From Thioalkalivibrio denitrificans (GTDB lineage Bacteria; Pseudomonadota; Gammaproteobacteria; Ectothiorhodospirales; Ectothiorhodospiraceae), in contig NZ_MVBK01000044.1 in the NCBI RefSeq assembly GCF_002000365.1, positions 29,724-72,158 of the forward strand: DNA of 42,435 nucleotides, in the 5' to 3' direction. The translations under genes were made by a program, and so were the position numbers. This document shows, piece by piece, positions 10,260 through 14,765 of this stretch. The notes below the pieces were generated by a model. That model did not search any database. It worked only from the letters and a program-made list of their open reading frames with translations, and was not told where the DNA came from. Numbering within the stretch: position 1 is the first letter of the stretch; the number at the start of each line of letters is the position of its first letter.

Positions 10260-10796
10260 TCAGACCTTGCTCTTCTGGTAACGCTTCTCACCCGCCACCA
10301 GTTCGGCCTTGGCCTCGTCTGCGCCGGCCCATTCCTCCACCCTGACCCACTTGTCGGGCTCGAGCTGCTTGTACTGCTCGAAGAAGTGGGTGATCTGGGC
10401 CAGCATGTCCATGGGCAGATCCGAGGGCGACTGCACGTTGCTGAAGCGGCTGTGCAACTTGTCCACGGGCACCGCCAGCACCTTGACGTCCGGACCGGCC
10501 TCGTCGGTCATCTTGAGCATCCCCACCGGGCGGCAGCGGATCACCGAGCCGGCGATCACCGGCACGGGGGTCACCACCAGCACGTCCACCGGATCCCCGT
10601 CCTCGGCCAGGGTATTGGGCACGAACCCGTAGTTACACGGGTAGAACATGGCGGTATTCATGAAGCGGTCCACGATCAGGGCGCCGCTCTCCTTGTCCAG
10701 CTCGTACTTGACGGGATAGTCGTGGGACGGGATTTCGATCACCACGTTGATGTCGTCTGGCAGGTTCTCGCCTGCCGTGATCTTGTCCAGGTTCAT
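10260..10796 (-). CDS. ppa: Inorganic pyrophosphatase (family I)
   Basis: Hydrolyses pyrophosphate from biosynthetic reactions; cytoplasmic. The 178 residues contain the family signature [10 protein letters not shown] with metal ligands Asp66, Asp68 and Asp71, and the conserved [12 protein letters not shown]. The C terminus is typical. Divergently transcribed from adk across a 265-bp gap that holds a perfect TATAAT on the ppa side. Pyrophosphatase and adenylate kinase are both energy-housekeeping enzymes, so a shared control region is plausible but not shown. Confidence 0.97.
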
Positions 10797-10920
10797 ACGG
10801 TTGTCGTTTCCCGGGGAAGTCGGTTTGCAGGGAAGCCACCCGGTTCAGAGGTGTGTGTCGATGCCGGGGGCGCATGGTTCGGCAGGCACCGGTACCTGCC
10901 GTACGGGGCCGGCACGGCGC

Positions 10921-10926
10921 ATTATA
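10921..10926 (-). promoter_or_regulatory. Candidate ppa promoter -10 element
   Basis: The minus strand reads TATAAT, a perfect sigma-70 -10 hexamer in otherwise GC-rich sequence, about 125 bp before the ppa start. No good -35 match lies 16-18 bp upstream (CTGTGC region). Confidence 0.45.
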
Positions 10927-10964
10927 GCGGCTTGACGCACGGCGCACAGCCGCTTCCGGCGCCC

Positions 10965-10993
10965 TTGCGCGGCAATGGGCAAGCAGGTATAAG
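10965..10993 (+). promoter_or_regulatory. Candidate adk promoter
   Basis: TTGCGC (10965-10970), a 17-bp spacer and TATAAG (10988-10993), about 69 bp before the adk ATG. The -10 matches 5 of 6 consensus bases, the -35 only 3 of 6. Confidence 0.4.
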
Positions 10994-11061
10994 ACTCGCC
11001 CAAACACATGAAAAAAATGTCTGAATTCAGGCCAATGACACCAATCCGGGGGATATGAGAC

Positions 11062-12402
11062 ATGCGTATCGTGCTGCTGGGTGCGCCGGGGTCCGGCAAG
11101 GGGACGCAGGCCAAACTGCTGGTCGAGCGCTACCGAATCCCCCAGATATCCACCGGCGACCTGCTGCGGGCCGCCGTTTCCACCGGGACGGCCCTGGGTC
11201 AGCAGGCCAAGGCCGCCATGGACTCGGGCCAGCTGGTACCCGACGAGATCGTCCTGGGCATGATCCGCGAACGCCTGTCCCTGCCTGACGCCGACAACGG
11301 CTTCATCCTCGACGGATTTCCCCGCAACCTCTCCCAGGCCGAAGCCCTGGACCGCATGCTCGAGGAGATGGGCAGGCCCCTGGACGGCGTACTGCTCATC
11401 GACGTGGATTTCGACATCCTCATGCAGCGCCTCAGCGGCCGCCTGACCTGCGAGTCCTGCGGGGCCGTATTCAACAGTTACACCAAGCCGCCCCGCCATG
11501 ACGGCGTGTGCGACATGTGCGGGGGCAACCTGCACCACCGTGCCGACGACAACGAGGAGACCATCAGCAACCGGCTCCGGGTGTACGAGGCCCAGACCAA
11601 GCCCGTGGCCGGCTATTATGAGTCCCGCGGGGCACTCCAGACGGTGGACGGCGAGGGGGAGATCGGGCGGATCTTCGACTCGGTGGTGGCATCCGCCGAG
11701 CGGCTGTTGGAAGGGGCCAAGACCCGCGCCGCAGCGGCCCCGCCACCGCCAAGGCGCCGAAGCGCCAGCGCCGTAAAACGGGCCGTGGAGGCCCACAAGG
11801 CCAAGGCCGCGGCAAAGAAGAAGGCCGCCGAGAAGGAAGCGAAGGCCGACAGCGCCAAGGCGGATGACGCAAAGAAAGCCGCGGCAGCCACGGGCAAGCA
11901 GGCCGCAACCGGGAAGAAGGCTGCCAAGAAGACGGCGAAGAAGGCCGCTCCCAAGAAGAAGGCCGCGGCAAAGAAGAAGGTCGCGGTGAAGAAGAAGGCC
12001 GGCGCCAAGAAAGAGGCCGTGAAGAAGACTGCGAAGAAGGCGGCCCCGAAGAAAAAGGCCGCGGTGAAGAAGAAAGCCGCCCCGAAGAAGAAGGTAGTCA
12101 GGAAAACCGCGAAGAAGGCTGGCCCGAAGAAAAAGGCCGCGGCGAAGAAGAAGGGCGCAGGGAAAGCGCCAGCTCGGAAGAAGGCTGCAGCAAAGAAGAA
12201 ACCCGCCCGCAAGGCTGCACCGAAGAAGAAGGCCGGTGCAGCGAGGAAACCGGCGAAGAAGACCGCACCGAAGAAGGCCGCGCCAAAGAAGAAGGCAGGC
12301 CCAGGGAAGAAGACCGCGAAGAAGGCGCCCAAGAAGGCCCCGGCCCGGAAGAAGACCGGAGGCGCGAAACGCGCACCTGCCCGGAAACGGGCCCGGCGCT
12401 GA
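11062..12402 (+). CDS. adk: Adenylate kinase with a histone H1-like lysine/alanine-rich C-terminal tail
   Basis: Residues 1 to about 217 are a complete adenylate kinase (ATP + AMP to 2 ADP): P-loop GAPGSGKGT at 7-15, FILDGFPRN at 81-89, and a zinc-type LID with Cys130, Cys133, Cys150 and Cys153. The same uninterrupted frame then runs about 229 more residues through a Pro/Arg linker (PPPPRRR) into repeats such as TAKKAAPKKKAAAKKK, closely resembling eukaryotic histone H1 tails and the bacterial AlgP family. Ordinary adenylate kinases stop at about 215 residues. The tail should be disordered, strongly basic and able to bind DNA, RNA or polyphosphate. The start has GGGGGAT 8 nt upstream. A perfect hairpin terminator follows. 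A sequencing join is unlikely but not excluded. Confidence 0.95.
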   Translation: MRIVLLGAPGSGKGTQAKLLVERYRIPQISTGDLLRAAVSTGTALGQQAKAAMDSGQLVPDEIVLGMIRERLSLPDADNGFILDGFPRNLSQAEALDRMLEEMGRPLDGVLLIDVDFDILMQRLSGRLTCESCGAVFNSYTKPPRHDGVCDMCGGNLHHRADDNEETISNRLRVYEAQTKPVAGYYESRGALQTVDGEGEIGRIFDSVVASAERLLEGAKTRAAAAPPPPRRRSASAVKRAVEAHKAKAAAKKKAAEKEAKADSAKADDAKKAAAATGKQAATGKKAAKKTAKKAAPKKKAAAKKKVAVKKKAGAKKEAVKKTAKKAAPKKKAAVKKKAAPKKKVVRKTAKKAGPKKKAAAKKKGAGKAPARKKAAAKKKPARKAAPKKKAGAARKPAKKTAPKKAAPKKKAGPGKKTAKKAPKKAPARKKTGGAKRAPARKRARR

Positions 12403-12425
12403 AGGCCCGGCACCGCGGACCGTGC

Positions 12426-12454
12426 ACGGCCCCTTCACCGGGGCCGTTGCTTTT
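12426..12454 (+). terminator. Rho-independent terminator of adk
   Basis: A perfect 8-bp stem, ACGGCCCC (12426-12433) with GGGGCCGT (12440-12447), loop of 6 nt, then TGC and TTTT. It lies 24 nt after the adk stop and ahead of lptD. Confidence 0.75.
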
Positions 12455-12554
12455 CCCGGACCGGATAGCGCGGCAGTGAAGCAGACCAGGGTCATCGACG
12501 CATTCTCGGCATGGCGCCGGGGAGCGGCCGCAACGATTCTCGGGAATCTGGCGC

Positions 12555-14765
12555 TTGAGCACGGTACTACGCACATTGTCCGGCTTTGCCCTTGCCGCGC
12601 TCGCCGGAGCCGCTGCGGCCTCCGACCCTGACCCCTGGGCCCTGTGCCGGCCGGACCCGACCCCCGCCCATACGCCTGCCAGCCCGGCAGGGGACCTGAG
12701 CATCCACCTGATCGCGGACGAGGCCCGGGTGGACAGGGCCGGCATGTCCGTATTCCGCGGCGACGCGGTGCTCTCCAGGGACGGCCGATCCCTGTTCGCG
12801 GACGAACTGCGCTTCCACGAAGTGCGCGGTTACGCCGAGGCCGAGGGCAACGTGGTTCTGGACGACGGCGAGCTGCGCATGGAGAGCCACCAGGGCCATC
12901 TGTACCTGGAATCCCAGGAAGGCGCCTTCGAGAGCGCCGTCTACCGGTACCGCCCCATGCACGCCCGGGGCGAGGCGAGCGAGGTGCTGCGCCTCGGGCC
13001 CGGCCAGATGCGCTTCACCGATGCCACCTACACCACCTGCGAACCGGACAGGGACGACTGGATACTGCGGGCCCGCCGCGTGGACCTGGACCAGGAGACC
13101 GGCCGGGGCAGCGCCCGCAACGTGTCGCTGCGCTTCAAGCGCGTGCCCCTGTTCTACACGCCCTACATCACCTTCCCGATCGACGACCGGCGCAAGTCCG
13201 GCTTCCTGTACCCGGAGTTCGGCAGTTCCGACGAGTCGGGGTTCGACCTGGCTGTGCCCTACTACTTGAACATCGCCCCCCACCGGGACGCCACCATCAC
13301 GCCGCGGTTCCTGGGCGATCGCGGCCTGCTGGCAGGCGGCGAGTTCCGTTACCTCAACCCCCGCAGCCACGGACAGGTGAACCTGGAGTACCTGGACGAC
13401 CGGGTCTACGGGGAGGAGCGCGGTGCGCTGTCATTCACCCACAGGGGCAATCCCTTCGAGCGCACCACGGTGGACGTCTCGGTGAACACCGTCTCCGATG
13501 CCGAGTACCTGTCGGACCTGGGCGGAACGCTGGACCTGTCCAGCACCACCCACCTGGAGAACCGCGCCGACCTGCGTTACAGGGGCGAGAACTGGAGCCT
13601 GTTGACCCGGCTGCAGGGTTACCAGACCGTCGATCCCGCCATCCCCTCGGAGTCCCGCCCCTACCAGCGCCTGCCCCAGGTGCTGTTGCGCACTGACCCG
13701 ACAACGATGCCCGGGGGCCTGGAGACGGACCTGCGGGCGGAATGGGTCGCCTTCGAGCGCAGCGACACGCTCACCGGGCAGCGCCTGGACCTGATGCCCG
13801 CCGTGCGTCTGCCCATGCGCCGCGCCTACGGATTTCTGGAACCGCAGATCAAGTACCGCTACACCGGCTACCAGCTCTCCGACACCGAGCCCGGGCAAGA
13901 CACCACGCCGGACCGGGCCGTGCCCATCGTGAGTCTGGACAGCGGGCTGTTCTTCGATCGCCCCATGGGGGGCGAACGCATGCAGACCCTGGAGCCGCGC
14001 CTGTACTACCTCTACGTGCCGCACCGGGACCAGGATGAACTGCCGCTGTTCGATACCGGCCGCGTGGACTTCAGCTTCGACCAGCTGTTTCGCGACACCC
14101 GCTTCACCGGGGCCGACCGGGTCGGTGACGCCAACCAGCTGACCCTGGCACTCACCAGCCGGGTGATCAATATGCAGAGCGGCGAGGAACGCTTCAGGGT
14201 CAGCGGCGGGCAGATTCTGTATTTCGACGACCGCCGGGTCACCCTCGCCCCGGGCGCCGACCCCGACACCCGGGGCAGCTCCAGCCTGGTGGCGGAGGCT
14301 GCGCTGCGCATGGCGCGCCACTGGTACACCAGCACGGCCGTGCAATGGGACCCCCACCGGGAACAAACGGAACTGGCCACGGCCCAATTGCAGTACCGCG
14401 GCCCGGGGCGTCGCATTGCCAACCTGGGCTATCGCCTGCGCGAGGACCCCCTGCGTCCGGACCGGGATCTGGAGCAGGTGGACGTCTCCGCCGCCTGGCC
14501 CCTGTCGACCCGCTGGGACGCCGTCGGACGCTACAACTACAGCCTGCGTGACAACCGGGATGTGGAAATCCTGGCGGGGCTGGAGTACGAAAGCTGCTGC
14601 TGGCGCGCCCGGGTGGTGGCGCGCCGATATCTGACGACGAGCGAGGATCGCGAGTACAATAACGCCATCCATTTCCAGCTGATCCTCAAGGGCCTGGCGG
14701 GCCTCGGCACCAACCTGGGGGATCTGCTGGGCGAAAGCATTCGAGGTTTCGAGAGCCATGACTGA
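12555..14765 (+). CDS. lptD: LPS-assembly protein LptD
   Basis: Outer-membrane beta-barrel that, with LptE, inserts lipopolysaccharide into the outer leaflet. Signal peptide at about 1-22 (ALAALAGAAAASD), an OstA/LptA-like periplasmic domain (about 50-150) and a C-terminal barrel. The four conserved cysteines are present: Cys31, Cys162 and the pair Cys681-Cys682 (YESCCWRARV), which form the rearranging disulfides. The start is TTG, chosen because it begins the signal peptide and no in-frame ATG fits. At 736 residues it is slightly shorter than E. coli. The stop overlaps the surA start by 8 bp. Confidence 0.96.
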   Translation: MSTVLRTLSGFALAALAGAAAASDPDPWALCRPDPTPAHTPASPAGDLSIHLIADEARVDRAGMSVFRGDAVLSRDGRSLFADELRFHEVRGYAEAEGNVVLDDGELRMESHQGHLYLESQEGAFESAVYRYRPMHARGEASEVLRLGPGQMRFTDATYTTCEPDRDDWILRARRVDLDQETGRGSARNVSLRFKRVPLFYTPYITFPIDDRRKSGFLYPEFGSSDESGFDLAVPYYLNIAPHRDATITPRFLGDRGLLAGGEFRYLNPRSHGQVNLEYLDDRVYGEERGALSFTHRGNPFERTTVDVSVNTVSDAEYLSDLGGTLDLSSTTHLENRADLRYRGENWSLLTRLQGYQTVDPAIPSESRPYQRLPQVLLRTDPTTMPGGLETDLRAEWVAFERSDTLTGQRLDLMPAVRLPMRRAYGFLEPQIKYRYTGYQLSDTEPGQDTTPDRAVPIVSLDSGLFFDRPMGGERMQTLEPRLYYLYVPHRDQDELPLFDTGRVDFSFDQLFRDTRFTGADRVGDANQLTLALTSRVINMQSGEERFRVSGGQILYFDDRRVTLAPGADPDTRGSSSLVAEAALRMARHWYTSTAVQWDPHREQTELATAQLQYRGPGRRIANLGYRLREDPLRPDRDLEQVDVSAAWPLSTRWDAVGRYNYSLRDNRDVEILAGLEYESCCWRARVVARRYLTTSEDREYNNAIHFQLILKGLAGLGTNLGDLLGESIRGFESHD

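Follow-up and report, generated by a model that had tools for sequence, protein, structure and literature searches.

An adenylate kinase fused to a lysine-rich, histone H1-like tail in Thioalkalivibrio denitrificans and other Gammaproteobacteria

In textbooks, adenylate kinase (Adk) appears as a soluble enzyme with some 215 residues. In the stretch of Thioalkalivibrio denitrificans DNA analyzed here (the window, 42,435 nucleotides), the open reading frame at 11062-12402 on the plus strand encodes an Adk of 446 residues in a single unbroken frame. The gene and its surroundings have the following features.

10260..10796, minus strand: ppa, inorganic pyrophosphatase, divergent neighbor (conserved context outside the fusion)
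11048..11053, plus strand: ribosome-binding-like GGGGGA, 8 nt before the ATG (found by eye)
11062..11700, plus strand: zinc-LID (long-type) adenylate kinase domain, residues 1-213 (Pfam, NCBIfam, residues, AlphaFold2)
within 11062..11700, plus strand: P-loop GAPGSGKGT, AMP site TGDLLR, DGFPRN, LID Cys130/133/150/153
11701..12399, plus strand: Lys/Ala/Pro-rich histone H1-like tail, predicted disordered, residues 214-446, imperfect DNA repeats
12400..12402, plus strand: stop codon of the one open reading frame
12426..12447, plus strand: terminator-like stem–loop of 8 pairs followed by TGCTTTT (terminator scan)
12555..14765, plus strand: lptD, conserved downstream neighbor (context)

An earlier note on this DNA had described a complete zinc-LID kinase which runs in frame into a Lys/Ala/Pro tail. 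The description holds, as there is a single frame with matches to Pfam and NCBIfam and a tail of 233 residues. Pfam places ADK at residues 5-190 (E = 2.2e-56) and ADK_lid at 127-162 (E = 3.8e-14), and the NCBIfam adk equivalog NF001380 is matched with 297.5 bits (cut-off 251). All four LID cysteines are present and every position checked in the P-loop (Lys), in the AMP site (TGD..R), at R88 and among the Arg and Asp residues of the LID is intact; we take these positions to have the roles assigned to them in the Adk literature. AlphaFold2 yields block pLDDT values of 85-95 up to residue 220. P-loop, AMP site and Cys4 LID are as in the known zinc (long-type) enzymes (e.g., PDB 1zin, NF001380), and alignments with the best solved relatives run from residue 1 to residue 208-218. 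The solved relatives listed, however, comprise 203-245 residues, fewer than the 446 residues found here. From these sequence features the protein is presumably a working zinc-type adenylate kinase.

The tail consists of 34.3% Lys, 32.2% Ala, 7.7% Pro and 6.9% Arg, carries a net charge of +88 and has no aromatic residue, Cys or Met. The calculated pI is 4.9 for the kinase part and 10.6 for the whole protein. Block pLDDT falls to 65-76 at residues 221-260 and to 42-54 beyond 260; helices are predicted up to residue 225 and at 235-263 with nothing confident further on, and the tail is predicted to be disordered. Being rich in Lys, Ala and Pro, of low complexity, free of aromatic residues and predicted disordered after residue 260, it has the characteristics of H1-like tails of the AlgP/PhaF kind. 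The Pfam domain HC2 (PF07382) does not match the protein at E values up to 1. The PASK polyphosphate-binding motif is defined (PMC12345225) as a 20-residue window with at least 75% D/E/S/K; the best such window of the tail reaches 65%. At the DNA level the tail is a patchwork of diverged repeats with periods of 15-96 nt and 67-83% matches. The suggestion of the earlier note that the tail DNA is repetitive and may vary in length by slippage is in part supported, by these diverged repeats and by length differences between the species of the genus. On the minus strand, an open frame of 647 codons (10633-12576) overlies adk; it is without sign of being a gene and is probably a by-product of the AAG/GCC codon bias.

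The gene had also been credited with its own candidate promoter and a perfect terminator. The terminator part agrees with the stem–loop, which starts 24 bases past the adk stop codon and is the sole plus-strand match of the terminator scan in 10700-12700, although on both strands together 6 sites were found against a shuffle mean of 3.4, so that by number alone the sites are not significant. The promoter was not recovered, as a scan of 10700-12700 for promoters of the sigma-70 type only returned no site. The gene order PBP2-ppa-adk-lptD-surA is common to the window locus and to tail-less Ectothiorhodospira; the tailed gene thus occupies the place of an ordinary adk and is its positional orthologue. 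Not foreseen in the earlier note is a second adk gene in the window genome (G000), coding for a canonical, tail-less protein of 219 residues without LID cysteines. The same genome encodes, some 52 kb away from the tailed gene and beyond the window (locus L119, contig C44, at about 93.2-93.7 kb), a free Lys/Ala protein of 137 residues with a weak similarity to HC2 (E = 0.0023, 18.5 bits, cut-off 40).

Two possible sources of the tail were considered and rejected. Fusion with a former H1-like gene downstream finds no donor at that place, since in Ectothiorhodospira the lptD match starts only about 150-250 bases after the match to the tail-less kinase. A genome-wide habit of adding such tails is not apparent either, as groups of the pattern KKxxKK (at least four hits) occur at two places each in G000 and in its congener G004. 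In G000 these are the Adk tail and a free H1-like open reading frame; in G004 they are the Adk tail and a place about 56 kb from adk, known there from the DNA pattern alone. This is a weak test because the pattern misses some tails, for example that of G038; in total G000 has 24 hits compared with 22 for a backward-pattern control.

All five genomes of the genus carry the tailed Adk (G001 is counted via a locus identical to its contig, L038, and the tail of G003 consists partly of N). Beyond the genus the architecture is widespread, which the earlier note likewise could not have seen. A Lys-rich tail is present in 15 of 80 loci of named relatives; one of the 15 tails is truncated by the end of its contig. 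In a sample of 369 gammaproteobacterial genomes, 83 of the 126 zinc-type Adk loci listed (28 + 98, drawn from the higher-scoring matches) have a tail of at least 50 residues, nine of these being cut by contig ends; this is not a class frequency because the query contained the tail and the loci are the best-scoring matches listed. The 83 loci belong to 39 families. L309 and L310, which lack a tail and belong to the window's own family, were left out of the 126 (the genome of L310 lies within the class sample). The two surveys overlap, as some kinase rows are identical (L044/L184, L046/L218, L053/L210). On a tree of 167 rows the tail label requires 8 changes, compared with 51.6 in shuffles. Well-supported branches force only a single change, so one gain of the tail with later losses may account for the distribution. 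Many relatives, including Ectothiorhodospira, are without a tail; there its function must be dispensable or performed otherwise.

Some tails deviate at their ends. In one clade (L041, L049, L051-L055, L060, L210, L235, L271) the C-terminal 60 or so residues of the Lys-rich tail form a helical-looking module with the consensus ..LKxLxxELK...KDxxRKQFSxxLxxDxxKALKxI[KR], kept best in L053-L055, L060, L210 and L235; the three members scanned gave no Pfam match to this module over cut-off. Another helical-looking end is seen in L186, L214 and L227. In L194, the sole Adk found in G462 (a genome with a completeness rating of 100%), the Lys-rich frame is left for a GC-rich one, by either an assembly error or a true frameshift. 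This locus was omitted from the tail compositions but is retained among the 83 and among the sole-Adk genomes below.

The 82 tails compared are alike in composition, with means of 0.33 for Lys, 0.23 for Ala and 0.002 for F/W/Y/C and a median net charge of +59. The Lys share stays at about 0.3 throughout kinase GC contents of 36-70%; its mean is 0.30 in the 30 high-GC loci and 0.33 in the 10 low-GC loci (rho = −0.32, p = 0.004), whereas the share of AAG versus AAA rises with GC (rho = 0.70). Such a pattern, with Lys varying little while the codon follows GC, is expected if the charge is selected. Within the genus, the tail has a pN/pS of 0.28-0.45, compared with 0.09-0.26 in the kinase and 0.91-1.11 when the tail codons are re-paired; these figures are rough owing to repeat alignments and saturation, the closest pair (0.28 at pS 0.16) being the most reliable. 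Judged by these comparisons, the fusion is conserved and under purifying selection.

Copy number was determined by two Pfam counts, which together cover 85 genomes with a tailed Adk from outside the genus. The tailed protein is the sole ADK match in 36 of them, 31 of which are at least 90% complete. There it should act as the housekeeping kinase, and the tail would then be compatible with catalysis. Further ADK copies, some being fragments, are present in the other 49. Tail-less genomes have one ADK each, both in 6 controls and in all 8 tail-less genomes of another count, in which 6 of the 21 tailed gammaproteobacterial genomes also have a single ADK. Residues of the AMP site, P-loop or LID are altered in the tailed copy of 14 of the 49 multi-copy genomes but in none of the 36 sole-Adk genomes (T31S with C153D in G601, one of the 36, was left uncounted, and L306, with an incomplete start, was omitted here and from the tree). 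The difference has a Fisher p of 2e-4, or 0.002 with the 11 stronger cases alone, and by family of 0.003 (0/16 vs. 10/25) or 0.007 with the window's own family added (10/26), kinship being ignored throughout. In these 11 of the 14 copies at least two scored sites are changed, in the other three (L203, L261, L271) a single one; examples are K13R with R36N or R36S (L302, L307), R88E (L281, L285) and R127C (L283). In another of the 11, a tailed paralogue with more than 300 residues after the kinase (L035, 4812-6428, genome G034), TGDLLR is gone and the LID Asp is replaced by Glu while the zinc cysteines are kept. Only one of 65 tail-less rows (L294) has altered AMP-site residues, compared with 14 altered among 102 tailed rows (p = 0.01). 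Well-supported branches of the tree require the altered label to change at least four times, several altered rows being long branches whose position is unsure according to a warning of the tree program.

In the 14 genomes, the P-loop Lys, TGD..R and the Arg residues are intact in all 21 tail-less partner copies. D163E occurs in 12 of the 21 and thus looks tolerated; in 12 loci examined (L370-L374, L376-L382) the tailed copy is accompanied by a second Adk of the zinc type that has no tail and uniformly carries D163E. The tails of the altered copies are 69-326 residues long, three being cut by contig ends (L283, L305, L308), and so far as seen the charge is weak in L283 (net +5) and L305 (net +12). 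The altered residues may signify another substrate and not lost activity. As the tail stays when the active site goes, either the tail has a second function or the altered kinase has a new one, and the function of the tail is probably separable from catalysis. A bifunctional nucleoid protein had been proposed in the earlier note; the tails kept while the kinase part decays support this proposal indirectly.

Both halves of the fusion are of known kinds, and the combination has a precedent in NCBIfam. NF010381 (PRK13808) of alphaproteobacteria describes an Adk with a Lys/Ala-rich tail of about 100 residues, thus a similar architecture; 7 of 299 genomes of the phylum exceed its cut-off, all seven with Lys/Ala-rich tails. 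Its Adk, however, is of the LID-less short type and far from the window Adk in the tree, and the window protein scores 203.5 bits where the cut-off is 426. The alphaproteobacterial tail is apparently of separate origin. AlgP (AlgR3) and PhaF of Pseudomonas are reported to carry, as does the window protein, a disordered C-terminal Lys/Ala/Pro tail behind a different domain, and these tails are connected with DNA binding and with the placing of polyphosphate or PHA granules. In AlgP and PhaF the N-terminal part is helical or a phasin and not an enzyme, and their tails contain KPAA units, which are absent from the window tail. Repeated Lys/Ala-rich units, as in the window tail, and length polymorphism by repeat units are also reported for H1-like proteins of the Hc2/HctB type (Chlamydia, Bordetella). 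These are stand-alone proteins, whereas the window tail is fused to Adk and without the Pfam HC2 match. In the open-licence literature searched we found no paper describing an Adk with an H1-like tail; PMC3574117 names adenylate kinase once, in its reference list, and among the papers listed by a broader search that did not require the kinase no title deals with the subject.

We suggest, as a reading that we hold to be rather probable, that a working zinc-type kinase is anchored at a polyanion by its cationic disordered tail, in the manner of AlgP and PhaF, and that the tail has in addition a job independent of the kinase. The tail would bind a polyanion, most likely nucleic acid of the nucleoid and possibly polyphosphate or ribosomal RNA, and hold the kinase there. 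Its own job could be the packing or positioning of this polyanion, which would not need kinase activity. The analogy with AlgP and PhaF makes polyanion binding the most likely function of the tail, with the nucleoid as our first choice of polyanion and polyphosphate as the second. We infer the kinase activity, the polyanion binding, the choice of polyanion, the localization and the gain from anchoring, and likewise the tethering, be it to nucleoid, ribosome or polyphosphate.

Could the fusion be an artefact or without function? To an assembly or frame error joining adk to a separate H1-like gene we give practically no credence: although the related locus L194 does depart from the Lys-rich frame, the same in-frame fusion is found in all five genomes of the genus, including G004 (one contig) and G002 (three contigs). 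The same tail on the same gene five times is neither chance nor an assembly slip, absence of the tail from independent assemblies, named in the earlier note as a refutation, finds no support among these genomes of the genus, and at the DNA level an error is refuted for the fusion. A neutral repeat tract, grown by slippage and tolerated at the C-terminus, would fit the repetitive DNA, the differing lengths among species, the many relatives without a tail and a pN/pS that is higher for the tail than for the kinase in 10 of 10 pairs. This we consider very improbable, however, since the tail pN/pS is far below 1, the Lys share holds over the whole GC range, and tails are present in 39 families and also on altered kinases.

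Other polyanions than the nucleoid could be the main target. The tail might put the kinase on polyphosphate granules, where with polyphosphate kinase (PPK) it would form a couple for phosphotransfer from polyphosphate to AMP; a PPK–Adk couple of this kind is known from work in E. coli. AlgP is reported to reside on polyphosphate granules whose spacing needs its H1-like tail, and lysine-rich sequences are reported to bind polyphosphate; moreover, G000 has ppk1, as have all 9 genomes in the ppk1 search with a completeness rating of 90% or more. Yet a search covering ppk1 did not find it in 7 of 21 tailed gammaproteobacterial genomes (G005, G335, G337, G338, G339, G341, G344; one is 81% complete) but did find it in 7 of the 8 genomes without a tail; the presence of ppk1 therefore does not track that of the tail. 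Unless these genomes are incomplete or other kinases step in, polyphosphate made by PPK1 is not the whole story. Furthermore, just 8 of the 82 tails, and not that of the window, have a PASK window, and the altered kinases with tails would be left unexplained. We have dropped polyphosphate as the single explanation and regard this reading as possible but rather doubtful. Alternatively, the tail could hold Adk at the ribosome or RNA near the aminoacyl-tRNA synthetases, where AMP would be cleared beside the pyrophosphatase encoded next door. In line with this, adk and ppa are no more than about 2.4 kb apart in all 11 tailed named loci whose upstream sequence extends for 3.6 kb or more, and E. coli YihI and RNase R have lysine-rich segments that are reported to bind polyphosphate and to be important for functions of the ribosome and of translation. 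But ppa also adjoins the tail-less adk genes of Ectothiorhodospira and Thiolinea, and in the tailed G038 the distance is 4.5 kb. It does not predict the tail, and we think a ribosomal anchor unlikely.

We thus prefer the anchored kinase whose tail has a job of its own. A bolder version, which we put forward tentatively and do not expect to be correct, is that Adk-H1 proteins are an overlooked class of nucleoid proteins coupling the adenylate state to the organization of the chromosome (or of polyphosphate). The active or degenerate kinase would be a nucleotide-responsive head, the tail a compactor of the polyanion and the degenerate copies pseudo-kinase sensors.

In summary, many Gammaproteobacteria have an Adk, often the sole one found, that is fused to an H1-like tail, and a similar tail stands on another Adk type in alphaproteobacteria. 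Repeatedly, the active site has changed while the tail was kept; these natural cases allow the roles of bacterial H1-like tails to be tested, and they bear on whether a physical link joins energy metabolism to the nucleoid or to polyphosphate.
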